32,956 bases of DNA, taken from the NCBI GenBank assembly GCA_011090425.1, contig PHGD01000046.1:1-32956 (forward strand), read 5' to 3'. The DNA comes from Nitrospira sp. LK70 (lineage in GTDB: Bacteria; Nitrospirota; Nitrospiria; Nitrospirales; Nitrospiraceae). Of the stretch, positions 2,369 through 18,466 are shown in pieces. Every line of letters starts with the position of its first letter. The stretch's first letter is position 1. The position numbers and the translations under genes are program-made. The notes below the pieces were generated by a model. The model was not told where the DNA came from, made no database searches, and worked only from the letters and a program-made list of their open reading frames with translations.

Positions 2369-3208
2369 ATGACGACTCGGGGAGCAGGATATCTCTTAGG
2401 CATCCCGATTGACCGCAAATCTCTTTCGTCGGTCATTGAAGAGTCGTTCCAAGCAGTTGAGCTGAAGACTTCGCAGCGAGTCTTTGTCTGCGCCAACCCT
2501 CATTCATTGATAGTTGCGCAGTATGACAGGAATCTTAAATCCGCTTTGACTCATGCTGATCTTATCGTAGCCGATGGAGTCGGAGTGTCATTCATGGCAC
2601 GGCTGGTCGGCGTGAAGATTGGTCCACGAATTACAGGAACCGATTATTTCCACAGTCTTCTGAATGCACTGCAGCAACGTGGGGGTGGACGTGTCTTTTT
2701 CTTTGGTTCGTCGCAGCAGGTTCTTGACCGTATTGCAAAACGTTTTGCCAGCGATTTTCCATCCCTGACGCTCTGTGGTGCGTTGTCTCCGCCATTTGGA
2801 GAGTGGAGCGAGTTGGAGAATCACCGAATGGTGGAAGTAATCAACGAGGCTAAACCCGATGTTCTCTGGGTCGGCATGACGGCGCCGAAGCAGGAAAAAT
2901 GGGTGGAGATCAATCGTCGGGAGCTCAATGTTCAGGTGATCGGTTCGATCGGTGCGGTATTTGACTTTTACGCTGGAACTTATTCACGAGCTCCTAAATG
3001 GGTCTGTAACATCGGCTTGGAGTGGGCCTATCGATTCATCCTTGAGCCTCGCCGCATGTGGCGACGCAACCTCGTGTCCGCACCAAAGTTTGTGTGGTTA
3101 GTGCTTCGTCGACACATCTTCCGTGGAGATACCACTCTGACAACTACAGATGGGTCGAAGCAGGAAGAAATTGCCCACCACGGCGAGAAAAAGCTGCCTA
3201 GCTCATGA
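2369..3208 (+). CDS. WecG/TagA/CpsF family glycosyltransferase
   Basis: This 279-aa GT26-family enzyme (WecG/TagA/CpsF) usually adds the second sugar (ManNAc, ManNAcA or related) onto an undecaprenyl-diphosphate-linked GlcNAc. The family motifs appear in order: CANPHSLIVA, then LIVADGVGVSFMARL with the conserved D and G near residues 67-75, RITGTD, VFFFGSS, VLWVGMTAPKQEKW, GSIGAVFDFYAGT and APKWVCNIGLEWAYR close to the C terminus. Length agrees with the family plus a short polar tail. A ribosome-binding site (GGGAG) precedes the ATG at 2369. It fits functionally with the WecA-type phosphoglycosyl transferase encoded at 5923-7557, which would make the lipid-linked acceptor. No membrane segment is seen, and association with the inner membrane is expected through its lipid substrate. 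Confidence 0.88.
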   Translation: MTTRGAGYLLGIPIDRKSLSSVIEESFQAVELKTSQRVFVCANPHSLIVAQYDRNLKSALTHADLIVADGVGVSFMARLVGVKIGPRITGTDYFHSLLNALQQRGGGRVFFFGSSQQVLDRIAKRFASDFPSLTLCGALSPPFGEWSELENHRMVEVINEAKPDVLWVGMTAPKQEKWVEINRRELNVQVIGSIGAVFDFYAGTYSRAPKWVCNIGLEWAYRFILEPRRMWRRNLVSAPKFVWLVLRRHIFRGDTTLTTTDGSKQEEIAHHGEKKLPSS

Positions 3209-3331
3209 CTGAACTTGCAGGGTGTGGCTCACCGGTTTGGAATTGTGATGCTTTGTGTTCCCCGTCGCTAGTGCTGTGCCGGCGACGTCATGGTGTTTCT
3301 ATCTGTCGCTCTTTACAGATTTGAACACGGC

Positions 3332-3358
3332 TGCAGCAACATAGACACAGTTGCTGCA
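3332..3358. promoter_or_regulatory. Perfect 9-bp inverted repeat, possible activator site
   Basis: TGCAGCAAC at 3332-3340 and GTTGCTGCA at 3350-3358 are perfect complements separated by 9 bases. The dyad centre lies about 92 bp upstream of the transcription start predicted from the sigma-54 match at 3411-3426, a usual distance for an NtrC-type activator site. It could alternatively be a weak terminator for the upstream glycosyltransferase gene, since it folds as an RNA hairpin, but only three T residues follow. The regulatory role is inference. Confidence 0.45.
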
Positions 3359-3410
3359 TTTGGTCTCCATCGTCTTCCTTAGTTTTCAGCGACATGCAAA
3401 CTTTATTGAA

Positions 3411-3426
3411 TGGTCTGGGATTTGCT
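3411..3426 (+). promoter_or_regulatory. Sigma-54 (-24/-12) promoter for the PEP-CTERM gene
   Basis: The 16 bases match the sigma-54 consensus TGGCACG-N4-TTGCW at TGG, at the G of position 7 and at the full TTGCT block. The invariant GG lies at 3412-3413 and the invariant GC at 3424-3425, with correct spacing. Predicted transcription would start near 3437, leaving a leader of about 48 bases before the ATG at 3485. PEP-CTERM protein genes are known to be controlled by RpoN with the PrsK/PrsR two-component pair in other bacteria, which supports the call. Confidence 0.65.
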
Positions 3427-3484
3427 GGACGATTCCTCGTTTATACGTGTCCCTAATGAACTAACCTCTAGAAGGAGCGGCGAC

Positions 3485-4147
3485 ATGCGGATGATGAAAC
3501 GATGGCTTAGGAGAGGACTTATCCTGCCGGCTGCTGCGGTGTGTGCTTTTTCGGTTTCGATCAGTGCAGCGCAAGCGGCTCTGGTGACCTATTCGTTCAC
3601 CGGTAGTATCGACAACATTGCTCCCAAGGATACAATCTCCGGCCTCTTTCGATTTGACAATGCGACGGGGGGGAGCGGTGGCGTTTATAATGGCGCAGTA
3701 ACGGGCTTCACCCTGAAGATAGAGGGGCTCGGGCACAACTCGTTTTTCGCCCCTGGTGCCAATGCTGTGACGATTTCACAGAACATGCCGCTCGCGAGTG
3801 GTATTGTCGACCGCTGGGCGTTGGTGACCGCTGCCACCGGTGACGTGATCAGTGGTACCACCGCGCCATTCAATTTCGATCTTCGTCTCGACCACAATGG
3901 CGGGGGGTTGTTTACCGACACGAGCCTTCAAGATCCGCCAAGCTTGAGCAGTTTGAATGGCGGTCGTGCGCAATGGCGGCTCTTTTTCGAGGATGTCAAC
4001 GGCAATCCATCCGTGTATCTCGGATCGATCAGTAGCCTGACCGCTGTACCGTTACCGGCGGCGGTGCTGTTGTTCGGAGCAGGGCTTATCTCCCTGGTGG
4101 GTTTGGGAGCCGGAGGGTTGAGAAATCTCCGAGCGTCCAAGGTCTAG
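3485..4147 (+). CDS. Secreted VPLPA-type PEP-CTERM sorting-domain protein
   Basis: This 220-aa exported protein is tagged for exosortase processing. A Sec signal peptide is visible: RMMKRWLRR, then a hydrophobic stretch, then AQA before about residue 32. The mature part is rich in Gly, Asn, Thr and Ser and has the YSFTGSIDN...ISGLFRFD opening typical of short PEP-CTERM proteins. The C terminus holds the tripartite sorting signal: VPLPA at residues 188-192, a hydrophobic helix of about 19 residues, and basic residues (Arg213, Arg216) at the end. The start at 3485 is chosen for its strong AGAAGGAG ribosome-binding site. In-frame codons further upstream overlap the sigma-54 promoter. The gene stands alone between promoter and hairpin, directly before the matching exosortase. 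It probably functions at the cell surface or in the matrix; no enzymatic domain is recognised. Confidence 0.85.
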   Translation: MRMMKRWLRRGLILPAAAVCAFSVSISAAQAALVTYSFTGSIDNIAPKDTISGLFRFDNATGGSGGVYNGAVTGFTLKIEGLGHNSFFAPGANAVTISQNMPLASGIVDRWALVTAATGDVISGTTAPFNFDLRLDHNGGGLFTDTSLQDPPSLSSLNGGRAQWRLFFEDVNGNPSVYLGSISSLTAVPLPAAVLLFGAGLISLVGLGAGGLRNLRASKV

Positions 4148-4161
4148 TCGTCTCGTTTCTG

Positions 4162-4197
4162 ACGGGCTTGATACTTCGATCGTGGTATCAAGCCCGT
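4162..4197 (+). terminator. Terminator-like hairpin after the PEP-CTERM gene
   Basis: Thirteen bases at 4162-4174 (ACGGGCTTGATAC) pair perfectly with 4185-4197 across a 10-base loop. It lies 15 bases after the stop codon of the PEP-CTERM gene. The downstream bases are only partly T-rich (TGCTTCTG), so this may be an imperfect intrinsic terminator or an mRNA-stabilising 3' hairpin. Confidence 0.6.
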
Positions 4198-4315: not shown

Positions 4316-5890
4316 ATGACCGGCACACGTTCCTTTCTTCTCACCTCAGTCCTGATTGTCGCGCTATTGATCTACATGTACGCGGAGAGTCTTGCCTTCT
4401 TGTTCATCCGTTGGTTTGGCACCGATGACTATAGCCATGGCATCTTTGTGCCTTTCATCAGTGCCTTCTTGATATGGCAATCTCGAAATCGTCTATTGCA
4501 GGTGCCGAGGAATAAATCATGGTGGGGACTTGTCGTGATCACCGCGGGGCTTTTTCTGTATGTCGTGGGCGAATTGTCCACGCTGTTTGTGGTCCTGCAC
4601 GCCTCTTTGTGGATTGTGATGGTCGGGTTGGCCGTTACGCTCCTCGGGATTCGTGGGACAAGAGCCATCGCTTTCCCTCTTGGCTATCTTCTGACCGCCA
4701 TCCCGCTGCCGACGTTTTTCTACGCGGGTCTTTCGAGCCAACTTCAACTCTGGTCCTCATCGCTCGGGGTTGGTTGTTTGCAGCTCGTCGGGGTGATGGC
4801 CTTTCAGGAAGGTAATGTCATTGATCTGGGGCCTGTGCAGCTTCAAGTAGTGGAGGCGTGCAGCGGCATTCGCTACCTGCTTCCGTTGATTTCTCTCGCC
4901 TTGCTCTGCGCCTACTCATTCAACGACCAGATGTGGAAACGAGCGGTCCTAGTGCTGTCGGCCATTCCGATCTCCATCGTGACCAACGGCTTTCGGATCG
5001 GCATGATCGGAGTGCTCGTCGAGCTCTACGGGAAAGGAGCGGCGGAGGGCTTCTACCATCTGTTCGAGGGATGGGTCGTTTTCATGGTGAGCTTCGGACT
5101 GTTGCTCATGGAAATGAGCCTCTTAGGAAAGCTAGGAGTGGCTGTGCCGCGGCAATCATGGTCTGAGCGACTGACGTTGAGACATCAGGAGTTGGACGCT
5201 GGGCGCGAAGTCGGACTCGAGAATCCAGCAGGCAACGTCTTCTCACCGGGACCGGCCTATCTCTGCAGTGTGGCTCTGTTCGCGCCCTTCACGTTGTTTT
5301 CGACCACGGTCATGGACCGTGAGGAGGTTCCCCCTCCACGAGCCACATTTGTCGATTTCCCGATGCAGATCGATGGATGGCAAGGTGAACCCGCTCCACT
5401 CGAAAAGCAATACATCGATGCGCTTCGATTCGATGATTATGTGCTTGCCGATTATCGTTGGGGCACTCAGCATCCCGTGAATTTCTATGCGGCGTACTAT
5501 CGGTCACAGCGGAAAGGGCAGTCGGCTCATTCGCCTCAGAGTTGTCTGCCGGGCGGCGGATGGGAAATAGGGTCGTTGACGCAGCAAGAATTATCGATGT
5601 CACCAGGGGTGACGGGACCACTCAGGGTCAATCGGGCCGTAATCCAGAAGGGCGAACAGAAGCAAATCGTGCTGTACTGGTTCAAACAACGAGACCGAAA
5701 CCTCACGGACGAATATCTGGTGAAGTTGTATTTGCTGTGGGATGCATTCTCGAGGCAACGAACTGATGGAGCGCTGGTGAGACTGGCTTCGCTCGTTGGT
5801 CCCGGTGAATCCGAGGCAGTTGTGGATCAACGTCTACAGGAATTGGCGATTGCGGTGGGGCGGGAGCTGACCAGGTTTGTACCGAACTGA
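4316..5890 (+). CDS. xrtD: Exosortase fused to EpsI domain, VPLPA-type (XrtD-like)
   Basis: This 524-aa inner-membrane protease/transpeptidase-like sorting enzyme has about eight hydrophobic segments in residues 5-270. The exosortase catalytic triad is intact: Cys182 in VVEACSGIRYLLP, Arg227 in TNGFRIG, and His248 in GFYHLFEGW. The DYSHG motif near residue 38 is also typical. After another hydrophobic stretch (about 310-325), residues 330-520 form an EpsI (DUF3485) domain with the SPQSCLPGGGW signature. Fusion with EpsI and adjacency to a VPLPA-tailed substrate both agree with exosortase D, the VPLPA-specific type. It probably cleaves the sorting tail and hands the protein on at the outer face of the membrane. 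It heads a nine-gene run and is followed by the next gene after 32 bases. No strong ribosome-binding site is visible before the ATG. Confidence 0.9.
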   Translation: MTGTRSFLLTSVLIVALLIYMYAESLAFLFIRWFGTDDYSHGIFVPFISAFLIWQSRNRLLQVPRNKSWWGLVVITAGLFLYVVGELSTLFVVLHASLWIVMVGLAVTLLGIRGTRAIAFPLGYLLTAIPLPTFFYAGLSSQLQLWSSSLGVGCLQLVGVMAFQEGNVIDLGPVQLQVVEACSGIRYLLPLISLALLCAYSFNDQMWKRAVLVLSAIPISIVTNGFRIGMIGVLVELYGKGAAEGFYHLFEGWVVFMVSFGLLLMEMSLLGKLGVAVPRQSWSERLTLRHQELDAGREVGLENPAGNVFSPGPAYLCSVALFAPFTLFSTTVMDREEVPPPRATFVDFPMQIDGWQGEPAPLEKQYIDALRFDDYVLADYRWGTQHPVNFYAAYYRSQRKGQSAHSPQSCLPGGGWEIGSLTQQELSMSPGVTGPLRVNRAVIQKGEQKQIVLYWFKQRDRNLTDEYLVKLYLLWDAFSRQRTDGALVRLASLVGPGESEAVVDQRLQELAIAVGRELTRFVPN

Positions 5891-5922
5891 ACCAACACAG
5901 GTGAGGATGCGGGGACCAATCC

Positions 5923-7557
5923 ATGGTGAATGAGCTGTTCTTTAGCTTCATGACGGCGCTACTTCTGTCCATGGCGCTGATTCCTCCGTTACGGCTGGCA
6001 GCCGAACGATTTCAGGTGATGGATCTGCCCGGAGGACGAAAAGTGCACGAGCATCCCATTCCACGGGTGGGGGGACTTGCCTTCGCCATCGGTGCCTGCG
6101 CTTCGATTGCCTGGTGGGTTCCGAAAGATGCGATTGCGCTATCGGTTCTGGTCGGCGGCGTCATTCTCGTGGGGTTCGGACTATGGGACGACCGTGTCGA
6201 TCTTAGCTATCGAAGCAAACTCGTAGGGCAGCTGATTGCCGCCCTTGCCGTTGTCTTGGGCGGTGATATCTGGTTTACCTCACTTCCCTTCTTACCGGAT
6301 GTGGAAGTACCGGCATGGGCTGGGATGTGTGTGACCGTCGTGTTTCTTATCGGAGTATCAAACGCGGTGAATCTGACGGATGGATTGGATGGACTAGCAG
6401 GAGGGTTATCGTTCATAACGCTCAGCGGGATTGCCTATTTGGCCTATCTATCTAATGATTCGATCGTCCTTATCCTTACGGTTCCCTTTCTTGGGGCGCT
6501 CTTGGGGTTCTTGCGTTACAACACGTACCCGGCTCGCATTTTCATGGGAGACGGCGGCAGCCAATTATTGGGATTCATCATGGGGGTATTCGCCGTTCTC
6601 CTGACGGATTCGTCACGAGGGCCATTCAGTCCGAGCCTTGCTCTTTTTCTATTGGGGCTGCCGTTTTTGGATACCCTTGGTGTGACCGGACAACGGCTGG
6701 CTGAAGGCCGTTCTCCGTTCATCGGCGATCGGGCGCACATTCACCACAAACTGCTTCGCTTTGGGTTCACGCATTATGAGGCTGTGACCGTCATTTACGT
6801 GATCCAGGCAGGGATGTTGGGCTTGGCGTATGTACTGCGATGGCAGTCCGACCTCTTGCTCCTTCCCCTTTACCTCATGATTGCAGGATCAGTCTTGATG
6901 CTGTTCGTTGCAGCAGGGCGCGGCCTTCTTCCCAATCTCACTCCACAAAGCGACCATTTTCTATCCAATGTGGCCGTGACGCGATTGACGAATGGCCCCT
7001 GGCTGACGGATCTGCCGATGCAGTTTTTGGCCGTGACCGTCCCATGTTTCCTCATTGCCCTGGTGTTTGTCCCATCGAATGTGCCGACCGATGTCGGCTA
7101 CCTGTCGATCATCATATTCGGGGTTGTGTTGCTCGGCCTCTCGCTTTCTCCTCGAGCCGCGCCGTACTTTGTCCGTGGCGGACTCTACGTGGGCACCACG
7201 TTTCTGCTGTATGTCTACGATGGGTCGCGAGCGAGCACGTTATCTGCCGTCACGATGGCGCACAACGCATTCTTCGTCGTGGTCGCTGTCATGGTGTTAT
7301 TGAGTCTTCGATTCAACCAGGAGAACCGGTTTCAGACGACACCGCTCGACTACTTAATGGTCTTCTTGGCCGTCATGTTCCCGCTACTTCCGGAGGTCAG
7401 CGCCGATATCTCGCACCTGGGGGTCTTTGCCGCAAAATTGATGGTGCTCTTCTTTGCCTTCGAATTGTTGCTCCATGCATTTTCCAGTCGTGTCCGACAG
7501 TTGGGATTCGTTTCGCTCTGGATCCTGTTCGGACTCGGAATTCGGATTTTGTTGTAG
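5923..7557 (+). CDS. WecA/MraY-type polyprenyl-phosphate sugar-1-phosphate transferase
   Basis: This polytopic membrane enzyme of 544 aa starts lipid-linked glycan assembly by moving a HexNAc-1-phosphate from a UDP-sugar to undecaprenyl phosphate. Family motifs are all present: HPIPRVGGLAF (about 44-54), LWDDRVDLSYRSK (about 87-99) carrying the Asp pair, NLTDGLDGLAGG (about 150-161), ARIFMGDGGSQLLGF (about 204-218) and the HIHHKL histidine motif (about 274-279). The usual WecA-like enzyme ends around residue 340. Here about 200 more residues of hydrophobic segments follow, an extension of unknown function. The gene sits 32 bases after the exosortase gene and 30 bases before prsT, clearly in one transcription unit. 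The sugar specificity is not readable, but a GT26 enzyme upstream (2369-3208) could take its product. Confidence 0.88.
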   Translation: MVNELFFSFMTALLLSMALIPPLRLAAERFQVMDLPGGRKVHEHPIPRVGGLAFAIGACASIAWWVPKDAIALSVLVGGVILVGFGLWDDRVDLSYRSKLVGQLIAALAVVLGGDIWFTSLPFLPDVEVPAWAGMCVTVVFLIGVSNAVNLTDGLDGLAGGLSFITLSGIAYLAYLSNDSIVLILTVPFLGALLGFLRYNTYPARIFMGDGGSQLLGFIMGVFAVLLTDSSRGPFSPSLALFLLGLPFLDTLGVTGQRLAEGRSPFIGDRAHIHHKLLRFGFTHYEAVTVIYVIQAGMLGLAYVLRWQSDLLLLPLYLMIAGSVLMLFVAAGRGLLPNLTPQSDHFLSNVAVTRLTNGPWLTDLPMQFLAVTVPCFLIALVFVPSNVPTDVGYLSIIIFGVVLLGLSLSPRAAPYFVRGGLYVGTTFLLYVYDGSRASTLSAVTMAHNAFFVVVAVMVLLSLRFNQENRFQTTPLDYLMVFLAVMFPLLPEVSADISHLGVFAAKLMVLFFAFELLLHAFSSRVRQLGFVSLWILFGLGIRILL

Positions 7558-7587
7558 CAAATCGAGTTACGTAATAACCTAGGTTTC

Positions 7588-10014
7588 ATGCCAAGGGCAT
7601 TCCAATACAACAGACGTGGGTGGACTTTCAGTATGTACGTGAGGACCGGCGTCGTGATTCTGTCGGTGGTCGCATGGACGGCTTGTGGTGGTCCCGAGGA
7701 GAGAAAGGCAAAGTACTTCGCTCGCGCCAGTGAGTACATTCAGGCGGCCAACTATCCCAAGGCGCGTGTCGCCATCAGAAATGTGCTGAAAATAGACCCA
7801 AAGGATGCGGAAGCCTATGTCCTGTTTGCCCGTGTTGAGGAAAAGGAAAAGAATTGGCGTAACGCGGTCCAGCTCTATCAGGAAGCTGTCCGGCTGGATC
7901 CAGGTCACACCGCAGCGTTGATTACGTTGGGTAAGTACTACCTGGAAGCCAGGTTGACCGAACAGGTGGTGGAAACGGCAGATACGGTTCTGAAGAAGGA
8001 GCCAAAGCATCCTCAAGCGAATGCACTGAAGATCGCCTCACAGGCGATGACGAAGGAAGCTGTTCCTTCGGCGATTCTTAAAGCGGAGGCACTCGCGAAA
8101 GAGTTTCCAACAGAACCGGATGTCGCCATCCTTCTTGGCACGTTGTACGACCAGCGCCGACGCTATCGTGATGCCGAGGCCACGTTACGACGCGCGCTGG
8201 GTGCTCATCCGAAAGATCTGGATCTTCTGAACAACTTGACTAGAGTTTTGACACAGGCGAACGACGTCGACGGCGCGGAGACGGTTATTCGTCGAATGAT
8301 TGACGCCGAGCCTGAGTCCATCGACCATCGGCTGAGGCTCGTTCGCTTCTACGTCCAACAGGCTGCCTACGATAAAGCGGAAGCAGTTCTACGCAACGCG
8401 GTGGCGCTTGATCCGAACAGCGAGCAGCGCCGCCTTATCTTGGCCGATTATTTTATGAGCAGGAAAGATGTTGCGTCTGCCGAACGAGTCTTGCTGGAAG
8501 CCGTCACACAGTTGCCGCATTCGAGCCAACTTCAGTTCGGGATTGCCACGATTTACAGGAAGGCCGGACAAGACGCAAAAGCACATGAGCGCTACGCCGC
8601 ATTGGTTCAAGAGTACAAGGATAAGCCGGCCGGGTTGGAAGCCAAGGTGAAGTTGGCGGAGATGGACTTTCAGGCCGGCAGGCAGATCGAAGCTGAGCGG
8701 CAAGTGCAGGAGGTATTAGGAGACAACCCCCGTTCTTCGGATGGCCTGACACTTGTAGGACGTATGGCGTTAGCCAGACGGAATGGAAAAGATGCGGTTC
8801 AGGCTTTTCGCACGGTCTTACATGATCAGCCTGAATTGGCAACAGTTCATTTTCTCCTTGGCCAGGCCTATCAGCTCACCGGAGAGACCAACCTTGCGAA
8901 AGAGAGTTTTGAGCGGGCCGTGGCTCTGTATCCTGACCAGGTCGATGCCAACCGGTCCCTTGCAGTACTGGAGAGTAGAAACGGCCGTTACCAGCAGGCA
9001 CGTGCTCGGCTGGAAGACTTGCTCAAACAACGTCCCGATGATGTCGCTGCCCTCGATATGCTGATGACGCTGGACTTGGTGATGAAAAACTGGTCTGGAG
9101 CAGAACAGACGTTGGGGCGGATCCGTCGCGTCGCAGCCGAGAGTCACGTGGCCTTAATGGCGGAAGGACGACTGTACGAGGCACAACGTCGTTTGAATGA
9201 CGCGATGAACGCCTATGGGCGTGCGACGGCGTTGGTTCCAAACGAACCCGAACCTCTCCTGTCTCTCGTGAAGCTTGAAGTGGCTCTAGGTCACAAGGTC
9301 CGATCTCAGGCGCGAATGGAAACGCTCCTCGCGGCTCGTCCGGACCATCCGTTCGCCCACGGATTGCTGGGAGAAGTATTGTCCCTGTCTGGAGCGCATG
9401 AAGCAGCGGTGCCTCACTATCGCGAAGCCGTGCGACTGCACCCAAAGTGGGTGACGCCTTGGCTTAACTGGGCCACGTCGGTTTCTAGGAAGAACCCGGA
9501 TGTGGCCGTACAGGTGTTACAGGAGGGGCTTAAGGCCAACCCCGATAGTGAGGAGTTGCACATGCTCTTGGCCTCTGTACAGTCAGAGCAAGGAGAGATC
9601 GATCTTGCGATGGACGCCTATGAGACGACCTTGCGGCTAAATCCTCGCAACGTACTGGCGGCGAATAATCTGGCCGTCTTGCTCGTGGACCACAAGGGCG
9701 ATCCGTCAAGTCTGCAAAAGGCCTTCGCGCTCAGCCGAGATTTTGAAAAAGAGGCGCCGCACCCGCTCTTTATCGATACCCTCGGCTGGGTGCGATTCCG
9801 AATGGGGCAATCGGAGGAGGCGACGCGGTTGCTGAGAGATGCCGTCTCCAAATCACCCGACCTTGCTGTCCTGAATTATCATCTTGGGATGGCATTCCTT
9901 CAGTCTGGTAAACGCACCGAGGCCCGTACCTATCTTTCAAAGGCACTGAAGAATTCCGATTCGTTCGAAGGACGGCGAGAGGCAAAGCAAGCCCTCGCGC
10001 AGATAAGGGGATAG
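7588..10014 (+). CDS. prsT: PEP-CTERM system TPR-repeat lipoprotein PrsT
   Basis: This 808-aa protein is made almost wholly of tetratricopeptide repeats from about residue 35 to the end (repeated patterns such as A-x-Y-x-L-F-A-R and PNS/PKD starting each helix pair). An N-terminal hydrophobic helix ends in WTACGG, consistent with a lipoprotein signal whose Cys is at residue 33 (or 18 if translation starts at the ATG at 7633, which gives a more ordinary signal peptide). The -3 residue of the lipobox is Trp, which is unusual. Size, lipoprotein start and position beside an exosortase and Wza-like gene match PrsT, a family found only with exosortase/PEP-CTERM loci. It is likely an envelope scaffold for polysaccharide or protein export. 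The stop codon is 9 bases before the next start. Confidence 0.87.
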   Translation: MPRAFQYNRRGWTFSMYVRTGVVILSVVAWTACGGPEERKAKYFARASEYIQAANYPKARVAIRNVLKIDPKDAEAYVLFARVEEKEKNWRNAVQLYQEAVRLDPGHTAALITLGKYYLEARLTEQVVETADTVLKKEPKHPQANALKIASQAMTKEAVPSAILKAEALAKEFPTEPDVAILLGTLYDQRRRYRDAEATLRRALGAHPKDLDLLNNLTRVLTQANDVDGAETVIRRMIDAEPESIDHRLRLVRFYVQQAAYDKAEAVLRNAVALDPNSEQRRLILADYFMSRKDVASAERVLLEAVTQLPHSSQLQFGIATIYRKAGQDAKAHERYAALVQEYKDKPAGLEAKVKLAEMDFQAGRQIEAERQVQEVLGDNPRSSDGLTLVGRMALARRNGKDAVQAFRTVLHDQPELATVHFLLGQAYQLTGETNLAKESFERAVALYPDQVDANRSLAVLESRNGRYQQARARLEDLLKQRPDDVAALDMLMTLDLVMKNWSGAEQTLGRIRRVAAESHVALMAEGRLYEAQRRLNDAMNAYGRATALVPNEPEPLLSLVKLEVALGHKVRSQARMETLLAARPDHPFAHGLLGEVLSLSGAHEAAVPHYREAVRLHPKWVTPWLNWATSVSRKNPDVAVQVLQEGLKANPDSEELHMLLASVQSEQGEIDLAMDAYETTLRLNPRNVLAANNLAVLLVDHKGDPSSLQKAFALSRDFEKEAPHPLFIDTLGWVRFRMGQSEEATRLLRDAVSKSPDLAVLNYHLGMAFLQSGKRTEARTYLSKALKNSDSFEGRREAKQALAQIRG

Positions 10015-10023
10015 GAAGAATTC

Positions 10024-10626
10024 ATGTCTCGATCAGTGCGATCAATGGTGAAGGGGGTACTGATGGCCACGGCTGTCGCGATCGCGGCGATGCCTGCTTA
10101 TGCCGGCGATGCGATGACTGTCGGGCTGGTGTCGCAGGTCGAACCAGGATATCGCCTCGGCGCCGAGGATATCATATTGGTTTCGGTGTGGAAGGATGAA
10201 CAGCTGACGCGAGAAGTCGTCGTCCGTCCGGACGGGATGTTTTCGTTTCCCCTCGTCGGCGATATCCAGGCTGAAGATCGAACCGTCGAGGACATTCGTG
10301 CCGACCTCGTGAAGCGGCTGACAAAGTATATTCCGAATGCCAATGTTTCGGTCGCAGTCACAAAAGTCATCAGTTACAAGGTGTATGTCGTCGGCCGAGT
10401 GAATAAGCCGGGTGAGTATTTGATCGGCCATTACACCGACGTGCTGCAGGCGCTCAGTCTTGCCGGTGGACTGACTCCGTTTGCCGCGGAGAACGATATT
10501 AAAGTTTTGCGGCGGGTGAGGGGAGAACAACATGCCATTCCCTTTCGATATGGAGATGTACGGAAAGGCAGGGATTTGGAGCAGAATATCATGCTGCAGC
10601 GCGGTGACGTCGTCATGGTCCCGTGA
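10024..10626 (+). CDS. Wza-family polysaccharide export lipoprotein-like protein
   Basis: This 200-aa periplasmic/outer-membrane export component has a signal peptide ending in AYA at about residue 27. Residues 40-120 hold the Poly_export domain (YRLGAEDIILVSVWKDEQL, then VVRPDGMFSFPLVGDI), and a SLBB-type domain follows (YKVYVVGRVNKPGEY, LSLAGGLTPFA). It is short, as in the PEP-CTERM-associated export proteins, and lacks a visible lipobox Cys and the long C-terminal helix of E. coli Wza, so the pore may rely on the beta-barrel protein encoded next. Its TGA overlaps the GTG start of the next gene, indicating translational coupling. The family is sure; stoichiometry and channel role are inferred. 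Confidence 0.9.
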   Translation: MSRSVRSMVKGVLMATAVAIAAMPAYAGDAMTVGLVSQVEPGYRLGAEDIILVSVWKDEQLTREVVVRPDGMFSFPLVGDIQAEDRTVEDIRADLVKRLTKYIPNANVSVAVTKVISYKVYVVGRVNKPGEYLIGHYTDVLQALSLAGGLTPFAAENDIKVLRRVRGEQHAIPFRYGDVRKGRDLEQNIMLQRGDVVMVP

Positions 10627-11849
10627 GCGTCGTGCTCATGCACCAGAGCTGCAGATGGAGAGACCGGAGTTGGCATACCGTCTACGCTCTTTCCATGGTG
10701 GCGATCGTTGCATGTCAGATGGCGCCGCGAAGCGAGGCTGCCGAATGGTCACTCTCGCCATCAATCGGAGTCAGCGGCGTTTATAACAGTAACTTGCTGT
10801 TGACCCCGCTGCCTCACTCTAAGAGTTACGGCTATTGGATTACACCGGCAGCGGAGTTTGCGGGGAAAACTGAACGTCTGGAGGTAAGCAGCCGGATCGC
10901 TACGGATTTCGTGGGATACTTCGGTGGAGAGGACAGACAGTTTACGAATGTCTTTGCTCCCTTGTCGGTGCGATATCAGACTGAAAAGGATCTCATAGGT
11001 TTCAACGGTGGGTTCATCCGCGACAATACGTTGCTCGGGGAATTACAGGAGACCGGGGTTGTCTTGCAGTTTACTCAGCGTAATCAATGGACCGCGAATC
11101 CTACGTGGACGAAACGATTGACCGAAAAGCTGTCATTGCAATCTAGCATACGGTTTTCCGACACCACATATGAGGGCGACAGATTGGTTGATTACCGATT
11201 GGTGGGAGGTTCGGGGGGATTCCTGTATCAACTTTCGGAGCGTGATCAACTCCAGCTTTCCGGAACCTACATCGATTTCCACACGACCGATTCGCCATCC
11301 CCGTTTCGAGCCGATTTCCCCGGGATCAATATGAGCCTCACACATGCCTTTTCTGAATCACTCACAGGAACCGTGTACGGCGGTCCCAGGTTTTTGTCTA
11401 CGAGCTCGCACTCACCGGTCGGCGACATCATGACGAGCGATACGGTGTGGCTGGCAGGGGCCAGTATGACGAAAAGATTTGAGAGAGTTTCGTTGCGAGC
11501 CTCGTTGTCTCGGGACCTTCTTCCAAGTGGGCTGGGATTACTCCTTGAGACCGATCGAGGAGAAGCCTCCGCGTCATACGATGTCTCGGAGACTCTGGCC
11601 TGCTCCGTAACTGTCGTCGGAATCCTCACGTCGGGAACGACGAACGCGGTCATCGGGGGAGTATATCCGGATAGCAGGTATGTCAGTGTTACGCCGAAAC
11701 TCTCCTGGAAGTTTCTCGAATGGTGGCAGGCGGAGGTGTCATATATGTACCGATGGCGCGACACCGACAGTGCCATCGATTCAGCTCAATCCCACGCGAC
11801 GACGTTCATGGTGACCTATTATCCACCAAAACTTTCCTACTCCTACTGA
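10623..11849 (+). CDS. PEP-CTERM/EPS-associated outer-membrane beta-barrel protein
   Basis: This 408-aa protein has a probable signal peptide (hydrophobic TVYALSMVAIVACQM, cleavage near SEAAE, about residue 40). The mature part shows alternating polar/hydrophobic strands with many aromatic residues and turns, and it ends in the aromatic SYSY, a typical beta-barrel C terminus. Patterns such as GVSGVYNSNLLLTP and LSWKFLEWWQAEVSYMYRWRDTDS match the outer-membrane barrel family found in exosortase loci (EpsL-like/BBP2 type). It may be the secretion porin through which the polysaccharide leaves. GTG at 10623 shares GTGA with the preceding stop; an in-frame ATG at 10638 is the alternative start. 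The gene ends 4 bases before the chain-length gene. Confidence 0.78.
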   Translation: MSVVLMHQSCRWRDRSWHTVYALSMVAIVACQMAPRSEAAEWSLSPSIGVSGVYNSNLLLTPLPHSKSYGYWITPAAEFAGKTERLEVSSRIATDFVGYFGGEDRQFTNVFAPLSVRYQTEKDLIGFNGGFIRDNTLLGELQETGVVLQFTQRNQWTANPTWTKRLTEKLSLQSSIRFSDTTYEGDRLVDYRLVGGSGGFLYQLSERDQLQLSGTYIDFHTTDSPSPFRADFPGINMSLTHAFSESLTGTVYGGPRFLSTSSHSPVGDIMTSDTVWLAGASMTKRFERVSLRASLSRDLLPSGLGLLLETDRGEASASYDVSETLACSVTVVGILTSGTTNAVIGGVYPDSRYVSVTPKLSWKFLEWWQAEVSYMYRWRDTDSAIDSAQSHATTFMVTYYPPKLSYSY

Positions 11850-11853
11850 GGCT

Positions 11854-13626
11854 ATGGCACAGACACAGGTTTCGCCACAGACATCCGGACCCGGCATGAG
11901 CTTGAAGGACTACATCACGGCTTTTCATCGCCGTCGCAAGCTTATCCTCCTGACCGGTCTGGGACTCTTGGCGTCGTCCCTGACGGTGGCATTTCTCTGG
12001 CCGCCGACCTATAAGTCGACTGCGACCATCTTGATCGAGGAGCAGGAGATTCCATCCGACCTCGTACGATCGACGATTACGAGTTATGCCGATCAAAGAA
12101 TTGAGACTATCAAACAACAGGTCATGAGCCGAACGACCCTCTGGAAGGTGGTCGAACGGTACGATCTCTACCACGATCAACGGAAGAACAGTCCGACCGA
12201 AGAAATTGTCAAACGCTTCGCCAAGGACCTCGAGGTGGAAGTGATCAGTGCCGACGTCGTAGATAAACGCACACAGCACGCGACCAAGGCGACCATTGCC
12301 TTTACGGTGGCGTATCAAAATCGCTCTCCGGAATTGGCGCAGAAGGTGGCGAATGAGCTGACCAGCTTGTTCTTGGGCGAAAACCTGAAGAGCCGCGAAC
12401 GCCAAGCCCAGGAAACCACCTCGTTTCTCCAGCAAGAAGCAGAAAATCTTGCTCGCCACATCAGTGACATCGATGAAAAGATCGCCGCGTTTAAACAGCG
12501 AGCCAACGGGGCACTTCCGGAGTTGATGCCGTTGAATCAGCAGTTGCTGAACCAAGCCGAGCGTGAATTGATGGACGTCGACCAGCAGGTCCGAAGCCTT
12601 GAAGAACGCAAAACCTATCTTGAAGGGGAATTGGCGACGATCAAACCGAATACGCCCATCTTATCCGTGACCGGCGAGCGCATTTTGGATTCAACTGAGC
12701 GCTTACGCGCACTTCTAGCGGAGTATGCCGGCGCCACGGCCAATCTGTCGCCGGATCATCCCGACATGATCAAGATGAAACAGGAGATCGATGCATTGCA
12801 AAAAGAGACCGGACAGGTCCCCGATGCAGAGGAAGCCTCGAAGCGACTCATCGATGCGCGCGCGGCATTGGCCGCCGACTTAGAACGGTTGGGAAACGAG
12901 CATCCGGACGTTCTGCAGACTCGGAGAAAAATCTCCGCTCTGGAGCTGGATATCCATCGCCTCAGCGCCGTTCAAAACAAGGTGATCAATCAGCGTCCGG
13001 AAAATCCCGCCTATATCAATCTCCAGGCTCAGTTGAATTCCGCAACATTCTCGTTGGAAGCATTGCGAAAAACCCGTCTGGACATCAAGCGTCGGCTGCA
13101 AGAGTATGCGACACGCCTTGAAAAGGGGCCGGAAATTGAACCGGAGTATCTTGTTCTGACAAGGGATCGAGATACATCCGGACAAAAATATCAGGACATT
13201 CGATCAAGGTTGTTGGAGGCGAAGGTGGCCGAAGGTTTGGAAGTCCAACGGAAGGGGGAGCGCTTTTCCCTCATTGATCCACCGAGTCTTCCTGAAAAGC
13301 CTTATAAGCCGAACCGTTTGGCCATCGTACTACTTGGTTTCATTCTTGCCGTCGGTGGGGGAGCCGGCTTGGGGGCTGCAGCCGAGTCGCTCGACCATTC
13401 GATTCGGACGCCCGATCAACTGGTCGCCCTGACGCAGCATTTTCCCTTGGCGGTGATTCCCTTTATGCCGAACGAAGCAGATGTGTCCCACGCGCAATTG
13501 CGACGACGAATCGTTCAAAGTGCGGGGATCGGCGCGTTGGGAACCGTTCTGTTGCTCCTTCATGTATTCGTAGTCCCTTTGGATGTGCTGTGGTTTGCCA
13601 CGCTGAGACAGTTGGGTATGGAGTAA
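11854..13626 (+). CDS. Wzz/GumC-type polysaccharide chain-length co-polymerase
   Basis: This 590-aa inner-membrane protein controls chain length and links synthesis to export. Residues 17-110 form the Wzz domain, with a first membrane helix about 33-52. Residues about 180-460 are long coiled coils reaching into the periplasm, rich in E, Q and L. The conserved Pro-rich segment before the second helix is present (LIDPPSLPEKPYKPNR, about 470-485), followed by the helix at about 487-510. A third hydrophobic stretch (about 553-580) follows, which would put the C terminus back on the periplasmic side; this is unlike simple Wzz proteins. There is no fused kinase domain; the separate CpsD-like protein follows after 13 bases. 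This matches the chain-length family of PEP-CTERM EPS loci. Confidence 0.9.
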   Translation: MAQTQVSPQTSGPGMSLKDYITAFHRRRKLILLTGLGLLASSLTVAFLWPPTYKSTATILIEEQEIPSDLVRSTITSYADQRIETIKQQVMSRTTLWKVVERYDLYHDQRKNSPTEEIVKRFAKDLEVEVISADVVDKRTQHATKATIAFTVAYQNRSPELAQKVANELTSLFLGENLKSRERQAQETTSFLQQEAENLARHISDIDEKIAAFKQRANGALPELMPLNQQLLNQAERELMDVDQQVRSLEERKTYLEGELATIKPNTPILSVTGERILDSTERLRALLAEYAGATANLSPDHPDMIKMKQEIDALQKETGQVPDAEEASKRLIDARAALAADLERLGNEHPDVLQTRRKISALELDIHRLSAVQNKVINQRPENPAYINLQAQLNSATFSLEALRKTRLDIKRRLQEYATRLEKGPEIEPEYLVLTRDRDTSGQKYQDIRSRLLEAKVAEGLEVQRKGERFSLIDPPSLPEKPYKPNRLAIVLLGFILAVGGGAGLGAAAESLDHSIRTPDQLVALTQHFPLAVIPFMPNEADVSHAQLRRRIVQSAGIGALGTVLLLLHVFVVPLDVLWFATLRQLGME

Positions 13627-13639
13627 GCAAAAAGGAACC

Positions 13640-14467
13640 ATGGATCGTATTCGTACCGCGCTTGACCTGTATAGAGGTTTCAAAGGTTCTTCGTCTGACG
13701 GCGAGAGCCCGAAGCGGGCTGCCAGGCAATCGGTGCCGCCGCCGATCACCTATACCAGAACCAGATCGCTGAGCATTCCTCATGCGGTGCTACACAGGCA
13801 TAGAGTCATGGCGGCTCATCGCAAAGGACCGTTCGTCGATGCGTACAAGATCCTCCGAACACAGGTTACGCAGCGATTGCGAGAGAACGGGTGGAATGTG
13901 GTGGGAGTGACGAGCCCAGGTTACGGCGAGGGTAAGACGCTGACTGCCGTCAATTTGGCCGTGAGTCTGGCCATGGAAACAACCCAGACGGTGCTTCTGG
14001 TCGACTCGGATTTGCAGGATCCCACCGTACATCAGGTCTTCGGCTTGAAAGACTGTCTCGGCCTTGCCGACTATTTGCTGGATGATCAGCCGGTCGAAGA
14101 TCTGCTTCTTCACCCCGGTATCGGGCGGTTCGTCTTGCTGCCGGGGGGGCGGGCGATCTCAAACTCCACCGAGATTTTGACCTCGCCCAAAATGGTGGCC
14201 CTCGTGGAGGAGTTGAAGCATCGGTATCCCTCCCGAGTCGTTATATTTGATCTCCCTCCATTGCTCCATACGGCGGATGTCTTGGCCTTCTCCCCCTACA
14301 CAGACGCCCTTCTCATGGTGGTTGAGGAGGGAAAGACGACGAGTGAAGAGCTGCAGCGGGCTCTGGCGCTGGTCAAGAATTCTCGCCCTGTTCTGGGAAC
14401 GGTGTTGAACAAGGCCGGCCGATCGTCTCTGACCCTTGCAGAGATGAGGACCATGTTGGCCACCTAG
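13640..14467 (+). CDS. CpsD/Wzc-type P-loop ATPase (BY-kinase family)
   Basis: This 275-aa cytoplasmic partner of the chain-length protein belongs to the bacterial tyrosine kinase (ParA/MinD-like) fold. Walker A is TSPGYGEGKT (about 91-100), Walker A' is VLLVDSDLQDP (about 118-128), and Walker B is VVIFDLPPLL near residue 205. The region DAYKILRTQV (about 67-76) is the usual segment before the P-loop in Wzc/CpsD proteins. The protein ends in LAEMRTMLAT and has no C-terminal tyrosine cluster, the normal autophosphorylation target, so it may phosphorylate other proteins or act only as an ATPase switch. The first 60 residues are basic and probably flexible. Its genes on both sides are within about 31 bases. 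Confidence 0.87.
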   Translation: MDRIRTALDLYRGFKGSSSDGESPKRAARQSVPPPITYTRTRSLSIPHAVLHRHRVMAAHRKGPFVDAYKILRTQVTQRLRENGWNVVGVTSPGYGEGKTLTAVNLAVSLAMETTQTVLLVDSDLQDPTVHQVFGLKDCLGLADYLLDDQPVEDLLLHPGIGRFVLLPGGRAISNSTEILTSPKMVALVEELKHRYPSRVVIFDLPPLLHTADVLAFSPYTDALLMVVEEGKTTSEELQRALALVKNSRPVLGTVLNKAGRSSLTLAEMRTMLAT

Positions 14468-14498
14468 ATCCAGATGTCGGTCATTGAGCGGCGTAATC

Positions 14499-15905
14499 AT
14501 GTACGAAGCATTTTATCGGTTCAAAGCTAAGCCATTCGCGCTCCTGCCGGACAGCGGTTTTCTCTATCCTGGCTCGGAGCACCAAACTGCCTACTGCCTC
14601 CTGGAGTACGGCATTCTGAGCCAGGCGCCGTTCATGGTGCTTACGGGCGATCCAGGCATGGGGAAGACCTCCCTTTTGCAAAAGCTCATCGTTGAGCATG
14701 GAAGCAAGCATAAAATCGGGTTGGTCACCAATGCCCGTTACGATATTGAGCAGCTCTTGCCGTGGATTCTGTTGTCCCTTGGGTTAAGCACCAAGCGGCT
14801 TGACCCGATCGAGGCCTACCATATCTTTTCAGAGTTTCTGTTCCAGGAGTCGAAACGTTCGCGACGGGTCATTCTCATCGTTGATGAGGCCCAAAGTTTG
14901 GGCGTGGAGCTGCTTGAAGAACTGCGGCTGTTGTCCAACATGAACGACGGCAAGACTCTGAAGCTGCAGATCATCCTTTCAGGCCAACCTGATCTCCATA
15001 CGTTGCTCCAACGTATGGAGATGGCTCAATTCGCACAGAGGATCGTCGTCGACTGTCATCTGAAACCGTTCTCTGACATCGAGACCGCCAACTGTATTCG
15101 GCATCGAATACGAGTCGCCGGTGGACAGCCGTCTCTCTTTACGAACGGAGCTTGTGCATTGGTGCATCGATTGAGCCAAGGGAACCCGCGACTGATCAAT
15201 CAGGTATCGGATATCGCCTTGACCTACGGGTATGCCGAACAAGCAAGCATCATTACTTCCAAGTTGGTGGCCCAAGCAGCCCTTGATCGGAGCAAGGGAG
15301 GAATCCTTCCCTTGGCGGCGAAAGAGGAGTTGGCCGGACTTGCCGCGGCGTCGGAAGATCCCTCGGAAATGGATGATCCGATTTCGAGCCCAGGGGATAC
15401 TACTGCGTGTGCAGAATCGTCCGCCGACCATCTGATGACCTCTCCGGACGAGGACTATACGAGCGCGATGGCGCTCGAAGAGGAAGGGCGATTGAAAGAG
15501 GCAGTAGAGTTGTTTCATTCAGCGACTAGAGACAAATCAATGTGGTTCAAGGCCAATTCACACATCGGATTCTGTTACGTCAAGATGAACGAGCACCATG
15601 CCGCGATACAGGCGTTTCGCACTGCCTTGGAGGATCCCACGGCTCAGCAGCAAGATGTCCTTGATGTGCTCTATCTATTGGGGCGCAGTCTTGAAACCAT
15701 CGGGAGGGTCGACCAGGCGCTGGAAGTCTATCATCGCGTCAACCAGGTAACCCCAACCTTTAGAGATGTCGCCGATCGGGTACGAGGGTTGGAGCGGACG
15801 CTGAAGCAATTGAGTCACAAGGGAAAATCCGTCAACGAAAAATATTTTTGGTTCAGTAGCGTCGTGGATCATGTCCACCGCTTTCTCATCGGCGGCCAGA
15901 AGTAG
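14499..15905 (+). CDS. ExeA/GspA-type AAA ATPase with C-terminal TPR domain
   Basis: This 468-aa protein is of the kind regularly found beside exosortase EPS genes. It opens with the characteristic MYEAFYRFKAKPF. Walker A is GDPGMGKTS (50-58) and Walker B is VILIVDEAQ (124-132), followed by a sensor-like LSGQPDL segment and GNPRLINQV, all typical of the ExeA-like AAA family. After a polar linker (about 275-317), residues 318-435 form TPR helices. ExeA proteins help insert or space envelope secretion complexes, so a role in placing or energising the EPS export machinery is likely. The ATG at 14499 is preferred over an upstream TTG because it restores the conserved family N terminus. The TPR part resembles the entire next protein (see findings). 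Confidence 0.85.
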   Translation: MYEAFYRFKAKPFALLPDSGFLYPGSEHQTAYCLLEYGILSQAPFMVLTGDPGMGKTSLLQKLIVEHGSKHKIGLVTNARYDIEQLLPWILLSLGLSTKRLDPIEAYHIFSEFLFQESKRSRRVILIVDEAQSLGVELLEELRLLSNMNDGKTLKLQIILSGQPDLHTLLQRMEMAQFAQRIVVDCHLKPFSDIETANCIRHRIRVAGGQPSLFTNGACALVHRLSQGNPRLINQVSDIALTYGYAEQASIITSKLVAQAALDRSKGGILPLAAKEELAGLAAASEDPSEMDDPISSPGDTTACAESSADHLMTSPDEDYTSAMALEEEGRLKEAVELFHSATRDKSMWFKANSHIGFCYVKMNEHHAAIQAFRTALEDPTAQQQDVLDVLYLLGRSLETIGRVDQALEVYHRVNQVTPTFRDVADRVRGLERTLKQLSHKGKSVNEKYFWFSSVVDHVHRFLIGGQK

Positions 15906-16516: not shown

Positions 16517-17050
16517 ATGGATTGTATTCTGATTCGCCACGGGATCGCCGTAGAGCCTGATGAGTGGGAAGGGGCGGAGGAGAATCGCCCTCTCACCGAA
16601 AAGGGAAAGAATCGCACCAGGCAGGTTGCCGAAGGGTTGGCTGCGCTCGACTGTAAGCCGACCCACCTATTCACGAGTCCCTTCGTGCGGGCGTACGATA
16701 CAGCGAGGCTGGTACGCGCTGTCGTCTGTCCGACTGTGAAGGTCGAGACACGGGAAGAGTTGGCGGTCGGAGCAAAGGCTGAGCTGCTGGTCGGATTGTT
16801 CCACACTCTCCCGTCGGATGCAGTGGTGCTCTGTGTGGGGCATGAACCTCAGCTCGGTGAAGCGGTCAGCCTGTTGCTCTGTGGAAAAACCCTTCCGAAC
16901 TTTCCACTTAAGAAGGCCGGGGCCGCCTATCTTGAGATCGCAGACGGTCTTAGACCTGGCCAGGGTCGGCTGTGCTGGCTGCTTCAGCCGATGCAGCTAC
17001 GTGCCATAGGCAAGCGAATGCACGGCAAGACACGGCTGGGACAGGATTAA
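16517..17050 (+). CDS. sixA: SixA-like phosphohistidine phosphatase
   Basis: This 177-aa member of the histidine phosphatase (RHG) superfamily probably removes phosphate from phosphohistidine proteins or small phosphate esters in the cytoplasm. The catalytic LIRHGIA lies at residues 5-11 with the nucleophilic His8. An acidic loop, RPLTEKGKNRTRQVAEGL, and TSPFVRAYDTA with the second Arg follow as in SixA, and VGHEPQL (near residue 111) supplies the second catalytic His. Length fits SixA (about 160 aa) rather than phosphoglycerate mutases. A strong GAGGAGG ribosome-binding site lies just before the ATG. The gene converges on the minus-strand kinase gene; their stop codons share the palindrome TTAA at 17047-17050. 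SixA proteins are often linked to Ppx genes, and a Ppx/GppA gene is nearby. Confidence 0.85.
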   Translation: MDCILIRHGIAVEPDEWEGAEENRPLTEKGKNRTRQVAEGLAALDCKPTHLFTSPFVRAYDTARLVRAVVCPTVKVETREELAVGAKAELLVGLFHTLPSDAVVLCVGHEPQLGEAVSLLLCGKTLPNFPLKKAGAAYLEIADGLRPGQGRLCWLLQPMQLRAIGKRMHGKTRLGQD

Positions 17051-17769
17051 GGCGGCACCGTTTCGGTACCGATTGTGGGTTTGGGGTTCTGCAACACCGG
17101 GAGGATACATCCTCGGAGCTCGTCCTGAATCTCTTCGGGAGATTTTCTTGCATCGACGACACTGAAGCCAAACTCCATCGCCATCTTGTCGAATTCTTCT
17201 ATCAGCAACGATTGATATTTTTTGAAACTATCGTAGAGGTCAGCTCCGAGACGGAGGTCCATTCCGGATTCCCAGTAGTTCATCCCAGTCGTCTCGATGA
17301 CTCGAAGGGCCAGGGTTTCAACATCGATCCGCAGGTAACAAACCAGGTCGGGAATCAACGCAAACCCAAACACGTCGCGGATCCATTTGCGGTCGGCGCT
17401 CCGCACGAAGTCACGCGCGAACGCCGTGTAGATATAGCGATCCGCCAAAACCACGAATCCTGATCGTAGAGCGGGAATGACCTGGTGCTCGAGGCGATCG
17501 GCAAAATCCGTCGCATAGAGCAGGCTGAGCGACCAACGGTCGAGGATATTGCCGGCCTTCGCCATTTCGATGGTCTTGGACATGAGGTTGGAACGAGTCC
17601 AGCCGGTCGTCATCACGCCGTACCCCTGCACCTCCAGCCACTCTTGCAGTAACTCGATGTGGGTCGTTCGGCCGACTCCATCGGTTCCTTCAATGGCGAT
17701 CAACTTGCCTTTCAGATCACTCGGGTCTAGGTACTTCAAACCGTCGCCAAAAAAGCGTGCGTCGGCCAT
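17047..17769 (-). CDS. Thymidylate kinase-like protein with Arg in Walker A
   Basis: This 240-aa P-loop kinase belongs to the thymidylate kinase fold and is a paralogue of the adjacent gene at 17717-18466. The nucleotide-binding loop reads EGTDGVGRTTH (about 27-37), with Arg34 in place of the almost invariant Lys, which may lower or alter phosphoryl transfer. The substrate-side motif LADRYIYTAFARDFVR is kept, as is the MNYWESGMDL lid segment. The ATG at 17769 is preferred because GAGG lies about 6 bases before it; a GTG at 17796 is an in-frame alternative. Its start overlaps the end of the paralogue by 53 bases in another frame. The canonical role would be dTMP to dTDP, but the lysine change and duplication suggest another nucleotide role or a regulatory one. 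Confidence 0.82.
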   Translation of the reverse strand: MADARFFGDGLKYLDPSDLKGKLIAIEGTDGVGRTTHIELLQEWLEVQGYGVMTTGWTRSNLMSKTIEMAKAGNILDRWSLSLLYATDFADRLEHQVIPALRSGFVVLADRYIYTAFARDFVRSADRKWIRDVFGFALIPDLVCYLRIDVETLALRVIETTGMNYWESGMDLRLGADLYDSFKKYQSLLIEEFDKMAMEFGFSVVDARKSPEEIQDELRGCILPVLQNPKPTIGTETVPP

Positions 17770-18466
17770 AGGTGCCTCGTCTTGGTTTATAGCCACGGAG
17801 CGCTTCTTCCACCAGCGCCCTCATATGTTCCTGCTGGGTCTCGATGTCTTGGGTCGCATCCATCGTCAACAGACCATATTCATCGACGAGCTTGTCGTAT
17901 TCGGCGAGGATCCGTGATTGAAAGAGTCGGAAACTTTCTGTGATGTCCGGGCTCAGATCCATGTCCATACCGGCTTCATAGTACTTGAAATGGCCACGAG
18001 TTCCTCGCGCGAGCCGAGAGATGGCGACTTCGATGGGGACTTTGAAATAAAACGCCATATCCGGCTTGATCGCAAATGCGTAGAGTTTTCGTACCCACTC
18101 GTTCGCCACGCCTCGTACCACATCGCGCGCAAACGCCGTATACATATATCGATCGGCCAGGACAAGCATGCCTGCCTTCAGGGGAGGGAGAATCTGATGA
18201 TAGAGCCGACTGGCGAAGTCTGTGGCATGCAGCAAGCTGAACGTCGTCGGGGTGAGGCTCTTCGATTTTTTCCCTCGTTTGGTGGTTTCTTTCACGAGTG
18301 CCGAGGAATTCCATTCGGTAAAGAATACCTTGTGCCCCTTGGACTCGAGCCACTTATGCAGTAGTTGCAGTTGAGTACTTTTGCCTGACCCGTCGATGCC
18401 TTCGACGATGATCAACTTCCCCGGGTAAGGGTGACAGGCTGGCTTGAGCAGGTGAGGTTCAGTCAT
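17717..18466 (-). CDS. Thymidylate kinase family protein
   Basis: This 249-aa kinase has an intact Walker A, VEGIDGSGKSTQ (about 21-32, Lys29), LADRYMYTAFARDVVR as the DRY/substrate motif, and a lid-like FKYYEAGMDMDL. The family phosphorylates dTMP to dTDP in the cytoplasm; the YTAFARD version of the DRx region differs from standard Tmk and is shared with the neighbouring paralogue, so both may belong to a distinct subfamily. The ATG at 18466 is firm because it overlaps the TGA of the upstream ppx gene (ATGA at 18463-18466), implying translational coupling. The C-terminal tail (GYKPRRGTYGRR...) is basic and is read over the start of the next gene. Whether it is the sole Tmk of the genome cannot be told here. 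Confidence 0.85.
   Translation of the reverse strand: MTEPHLLKPACHPYPGKLIIVEGIDGSGKSTQLQLLHKWLESKGHKVFFTEWNSSALVKETTKRGKKSKSLTPTTFSLLHATDFASRLYHQILPPLKAGMLVLADRYMYTAFARDVVRGVANEWVRKLYAFAIKPDMAFYFKVPIEVAISRLARGTRGHFKYYEAGMDMDLSPDITESFRLFQSRILAEYDKLVDEYGLLTMDATQDIETQQEHMRALVEEALRGYKPRRGTYGRRTLFWRRFEVPRPE

Follow-up and report, generated by a model that had tools for sequence, protein, structure and literature searches.

A predicted sigma-54 promoter conserved before VPLPA-CTERM genes of Nitrospira, with an activator that is probably not PrsR

The closest described systems are those of Proteobacteria, in which a sigma-54 core promoter and an upstream motif precede 99 of 167 PEP-CTERM genes (Haft et al., 2006; PMC1569441). 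These PrsK/PrsR promoters serve a single PEP-CTERM-type gene behind a long upstream region, and about 70 bases lie between their -24/-12 core and the start codon. A separate upstream block, motif 1, has a TTTACA end and stands 63 +/- 11 bases away at variable spacing. The motifs were stated to be shared by Proteobacteria only (Haft et al., 2006; PMC1569441). In Aquincola tertiaricarbonis, the -24/-12 promoter of pepA has been mapped by primer extension and needs RpoN1, whereas the downstream prsT does not (PMC9850573). The pepA core reads TGGCAC/CTGCTT, the gene is followed by a hairpin, and PrsK/PrsR are encoded in the genome (PMC9850573).

A literature search found no report on the control of exosortase genes in Nitrospira. 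The genus comprises the main nitrite oxidisers and the comammox bacteria of water treatment. The 'Nitrospira multiformis' of the 2006 table is the proteobacterium Nitrosospira. Here we analyze a window, the whole 32,956-nucleotide stretch of contig C107 from the 4.7-Mb genome of Nitrospira sp. LK70, in which a first-pass annotation had placed a sigma-54 promoter before a 'PEP-CTERM gene' (Table 1). The best explanation of our results, in which we have high confidence, is that a sigma-54 (RpoN) promoter has its core at this site and would transcribe a single-gene VPLPA-CTERM unit, separate from the exosortase operon. Judged by its sequence, the promoter differs from the known sigma-54 promoters of PEP-CTERM genes in its phylum, its exosortase branch and its enhancer block. 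It resembles the promoters of Haft et al. (PMC1569441) in serving a single gene, in its long upstream region with a separate upstream block, and in the distance of the core from the start codon; unlike motif 1, the Nitrospira block has a different sequence, keeps a nearly constant distance of about 90 bases, and occurs independently of a PrsR orthologue. As with pepA, a hairpin follows the gene, and a gene of the system lies downstream that appears not to be RpoN-dependent. The dependence on RpoN is experimental in Aquincola (PMC9850573) and predicted in Nitrospira, where the gene is of the XrtD/VPLPA branch.

Table 1. Features of the promoter region and the genes behind it, numbered from the first base of the window
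Feature	Position	Strand	Basis or remark
Upstream block TACAGATTTGAACAC	3314-3328	+	Consensus TACAnAnTTGAACRC, about -121 to -107; candidate activator site
Rest of upstream block GGCTGCAGCAACATAGACACAGTTGCT with ACACAGTTGC	3329-3355	+	Partly conserved, consensus ..CCGTTGCAGGAATNTNGACACAGTTGC
Middle box CTTAGTTTTCAGCGACAT	3378-3395	+	Conserved among VPLPA promoters
Predicted sigma-54 core promoter TGGTCTGGGATTTGCT	3411-3426	+	GG 3412-3413 (-24), GC 3424-3425 (-12)
Predicted transcription start	3437	+	From sigma-54 geometry, with the C in GC taken as -12 and the start placed 12 bases past it
Leader segment TTTATACGTGTCCCTAATG	3440-3458	+	Conserved; CGTGT about 34 bases after GG
Shine-Dalgarno AAGGAG	3472-3477	+	Sequence; GGAG conserved in alignment of relatives
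VPLPA-CTERM gene, 220 aa	3485-4147	+	Signal peptide, beta-barrel-like domain, sorting tail VPLPAAVLLFGAGLISLVGLGAGGLRNLR
12-bp hairpin CGGGCTTGATAC/GTATCAAGCCCG	4163-4196	+	Putative terminator or 3' stabiliser
Exosortase XrtD fused to EpsI domain	4316-5890	+	TIGR04152 543 bits, cut-off 400; VPLPA-specific
Polysaccharide/exosortase-associated genes	5923-15905	+	NCBIfam matches

The gene behind the promoter does encode a sorting substrate, as the first-pass annotation held, but not one of the classical type. Its tail consists of the VPLPA motif, a hydrophobic helix and a basic end, VPLP being invariant in 31 sequences, and the neighboring exosortase is XrtD, not XrtA. The tail and the adjoining XrtD together identify the gene, at the level of sequence, as a member of the VPLPA/XrtD branch and not of the classical PEP-CTERM/XrtA type. 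With the TIGR03370 model, whose cut-off is 25.35 bits, the protein reaches only 10.5. In the structure model (pLDDT 82), the beta-barrel-like domain occupies residues 31-189, between the signal peptide and the sorting helix. A Foldseek search with this model returned no match at E <= 0.001, and VIA-align gave middling barrel matches (best Z 9.4), with no convincing relative among the solved structures.

The proposed 16-base match, with GG and GC at exact spacing and TTGCT (3422-3426), is borne out by the window sequence, as is the distance of 48 bases from the predicted start to the start codon at 3485. The core departs from TGGCACG-N4-TTGCT by three mismatches and is off consensus in its -24 half, which reads TGGTCTG in place of TGGCACG. 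The pattern TGG-N8-TTGCT occurs once in the window against 1.00 expected from shuffles, and the full consensus with at most three mismatches occurs at 23 sites against 29.5 expected, that is, without enrichment. The match is thus at chance level within the window, and the evidence for a promoter had to come from conservation. No sigma-70-like promoter (9/12 or better) was found on the + strand at 3209-3485. A reading frame from an ATG at 3410, which would place the core inside the gene, was rejected, since the spacing of the core to the ATG at 3485 shifts out of frame among relatives. The presence of rpoN, named by the first-pass annotation as a check on its proposal, was confirmed: an intact gene is found on contig C185 (PF04552 match, 197 bits).

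When 79 Nitrospira genomes were searched at the protein level, 62 proved to have the VPLPA-CTERM gene, and nearly all relatives by this PEP-CTERM-type protein bear the name Nitrospira. The promoter set comprised the window and the other top-ranking matches, 30 in all, with protein identities of 60-100%. Among these sequences, which are related by descent and come mostly from metagenome-assembled genomes, GG-N10-GC with TTGCT at the same spacing is present in every promoter (the window and 29 other Nitrospira genes), 65-85 bases ahead of the start. In a motif-blind alignment of the 30, identity is 100% at the two G, at the C three positions later and throughout TTTGCT; most other columns are much lower, and the flanking DNA drifts. 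The core lies 62-85 bases before the start codon among the relatives, and the differences include some not divisible by three, so the conservation is not coding. In a second fetch of 52 loci from named Nitrospira genomes, which are largely the same genomes as in the first set and hence not independent of it, GG-N8-YTGCW was found upstream of the gene in 47, against 2.4% of random 90-base stretches from the same loci. The remaining five, all distant matches, have no start codon at their upstream end. A profile of 45 promoters, anchored on GG-N8-TTGC (which none of the loci examined lacked) and leaving out a few loci near contig ends where upstream DNA was missing, has just two runs of at least three bases kept in at least 90%, namely TGG and TTGCT. 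This genus-wide conservation, together with the intact rpoN, strongly supports the proposal that the sorting substrate stands behind a sigma-54 promoter.

The pattern is also specific to this gene family. A composite of middle box and core, TTTTCA-N15-40-TGGYCYR-N4-TTGCT, has 49 matches in the 79 genomes, 46 of them directly before genes of the VPLPA-CTERM family and the other three with a deviating gap; the reversed pattern, used as a control, has two. Within its own genome the composite pattern matches solely in the window. Where the VPLPA-CTERM gene is present in tandem copies, as in G006, G053, and G078, each copy has a separate promoter.

Core, upstream block (about 90 bases before the core), middle box, and leader keep nearly fixed distances in the comparison across Nitrospira. 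The upstream block begins about 98 bases before GG; where TTGAAC is present, its first base is mostly 88-93 bases from GG. Its columns are 90-100% identical in the 30 promoters, and 24 of its 27 matches in the 79 genomes precede VPLPA genes, with a single match in the genome of the window. The weaker part that follows TACAnAnTTGAACRC reads GTTGC...ACACAGTTGC, and ACACAGTTGC, about 20 bases beyond, may be a second half-site. Activators of sigma-54 usually bind around where this block sits (about -121 to -83), and the block is probably the binding site of an activator other than PrsR. Outside VPLPA promoters, the block TACAAAATTGAACAC occurs in three genomes as one shared sequence (G022:C110, locus L157; G067:C33, locus L156 at about 1515; and G068:C54). 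In G022 and G067, the two examined, a glycosyltransferase-like reading frame follows directly behind it, which may be a second target or a sign of shared descent.

The middle box has the consensus CTTAGTTTTCAGnnACAT, and its TTTTCA usually starts 29 bases before GG. PrsR-type promoters carry a similar ATAYTTTCAnnnnCTTATA at the same position. The box is placed like an IHF site but does not resemble one in sequence: against the IHF consensus, the middle box of VPLPA promoters scores no better than shuffled sequence (6.31 vs. 6.31), and PrsR-type promoters score slightly higher (7.5 vs. 6.7 shuffled). Five HU/IHF-type genes are present in the genome, and the box is possibly a site for an architectural protein or a contact of the RNA polymerase alpha subunit. 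The window promoter and the PrsR-type promoter of the same genome, unlike in other respects, share a TTTCA-N4-CWTA middle box at about -55 to -42. In the leader, the consensus TTCATACGTGTYCCTAATG (about +4 to +22) keeps a nearly fixed distance from the core, not from the start codon.

The first-pass annotation also hinted at control by PrsK/PrsR, which would make this a PEP-CTERM promoter of the proteobacterial kind. PrsR-type sigma-54 promoters do drive classical PEP-CTERM genes (PMC1569441), and half of the pair whose presence was to be checked is in the genome: PrsR scores well above the family cut-off on a contig other than that of the window (C70:27924-29315), and for PrsK nothing exceeds the cut-off. 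This PrsR, however, adjoins another gene of the PEP-CTERM class. It is flanked by a second exosortase and by a short VPEP-type gene, whose promoter combines a weak core, TAGCACAAATTATGCT, with two TGTAA-N7-TTACA boxes resembling the proteobacterial PrsR box, and thereby indicates that the PrsR-type promoter exists outside Proteobacteria as well. The C70 promoter is like that of the window in its sigma-54-type core and in a similar middle box at the same place; it differs in its boxes, in the weakness of its core and in its exosortase. The window holds no TGTAA-N7-TTACA, nor is there a relaxed form at 3100-3500. A TTTACA at 3312-3317, 93 bases before the core, lacks the dyad, and conservation does not extend to its first bases. 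If a PrsR-type promoter is defined as having, 32-92 bases ahead of its core, TGTAA-N7-TTACA or a 17-mer with a TTTACA end, the window promoter falls outside the class. Moreover, a PrsR orthologue (threshold 1e-130) was detected in just 21 of the 79 genomes, and many genomes that bear the promoter show none at this threshold. It was not found in the 99%-complete G001, G039, and G054, all of which have the window-type promoter; G001 and G039 are one contig each, and G054 is the nearest relative by VPLPA-CTERM protein (95% identical). Given the missing box and the promoter-bearing genomes in which no orthologue was found, the activator is probably a regulator other than PrsR, and we consider control by PrsR/PrsK improbable. 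Neither the window nor the DNA up to 6 kb from the genes of the relatives (the XrtD locus) was found to encode a sigma-54 activator. The best other PrsK/PrsR-like pair is on contig C38 (response regulator at L008:1501-2847) and is present in 72 of the 79 genomes. A regulator so nearly universal in the genus would be a core regulator, which is compatible with the role of activator without being specific to it, and it is only a candidate. Roughly 30 sigma-54 activators are encoded in the genome, among them PrsR and this C38 regulator. As to the second exosortase system on C70 (G000, locus L049, about 5409-9471, - strand), it consists of the exosortase, a neighboring gene, PrsR without PrsK, and the short VPEP-CTERM gene; its exosortase scores below the cut-offs of all named subtypes, the best being XrtC with 163 bits (cut-off 300).

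Another sigma factor or regulator might bind the conserved block, in which case the -24/-12 likeness would be coincidental. The chance-level frequency of the core in the window and the presence of other, equally placed conserved blocks beside it are in line with such a coincidence. Yet the strictest positions are precisely those that sigma-54 demands (GG, GC, and TTGC), at exact spacing in 30 of 30 promoters, and they are kept even in distant members of the wider set in which the middle box or the upstream block is not recognisable; we regard coincidence as very improbable. The question of how far transcription extends is distinct. If it read through the hairpin, the sigma-54 promoter would drive the exosortase operon too. 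The gap between the VPLPA-CTERM gene and xrtD is just 168 bases, no other xrtD promoter was identified here, and the tail after the hairpin, TTGCTTCTGCGG, is T-poor, a weakness of the T-run that makes read-through into XrtD possible. The hairpin itself argues otherwise, as a strong one is kept 3' of the gene with changed arms at 30 of 46 loci, and in Aquincola the downstream prsT is independent of RpoN1 (PMC9850573). Transcription of the operon from this promoter is accordingly rated as less likely than not. The earlier claim that the exosortase operon is outside RpoN control draws partial support from the hairpin and from 32 of 32 loci with xrtD found, none with a sigma-54-like site upstream of the exosortase; the poor T-run counts against it. 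Behind xrtD, the region encodes a WecA-like protein, a PrsT-like TPR protein, an export protein, an outer-membrane protein, a chain-length protein, a tyrosine kinase, and an ATPase. Substrate synthesis looks like a step switched separately from the sorting machine.

The preferred reading, a sigma-54 promoter for the VPLPA-CTERM gene by itself, suggests the following mechanism. RNA polymerase with RpoN would wait at the core as a closed complex, which an enhancer-binding ATPase at the upstream block (TACAnAnTTGAACRC...ACACAGTTGC) would open through DNA looping. The hairpin after the gene would end most transcription, and the downstream exosortase/polysaccharide operon would be expressed separately. 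Separate expression would mean that the export machine is made constantly and that synthesis of its substrate is switched on by a signal. We lean toward the broader view that Nitrospira has a second, PrsR-independent sigma-54 switch for XrtD VPLPA-CTERM substrates, with an enhancer block and an activator of its own, which would act on one gene (or its tandem copies) per genome and sometimes exist beside the PrsR/PEP-CTERM switch. With such a switch, the control of exosortase substrates by RpoN would reach beyond Proteobacteria to Nitrospira, and it suggests that controlling the synthesis of the substrate, and not the sorting machine, is a recurring design achieved via different activators. Since analogous genes decide floc formation in Proteobacteria (PMC9850573), the activator and its signal would give a handle on the aggregation of Nitrospira.

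Two other regions of the window are of note, both on the - strand and both assigned by translation only. A 1226-aa frame at 20742-24422 appears to fuse a thioredoxin/DUF255-type (YyaL-like) protein to an aldo/keto reductase, and at 17047-18553 two overlapping tandem genes are both thymidylate kinase-like.
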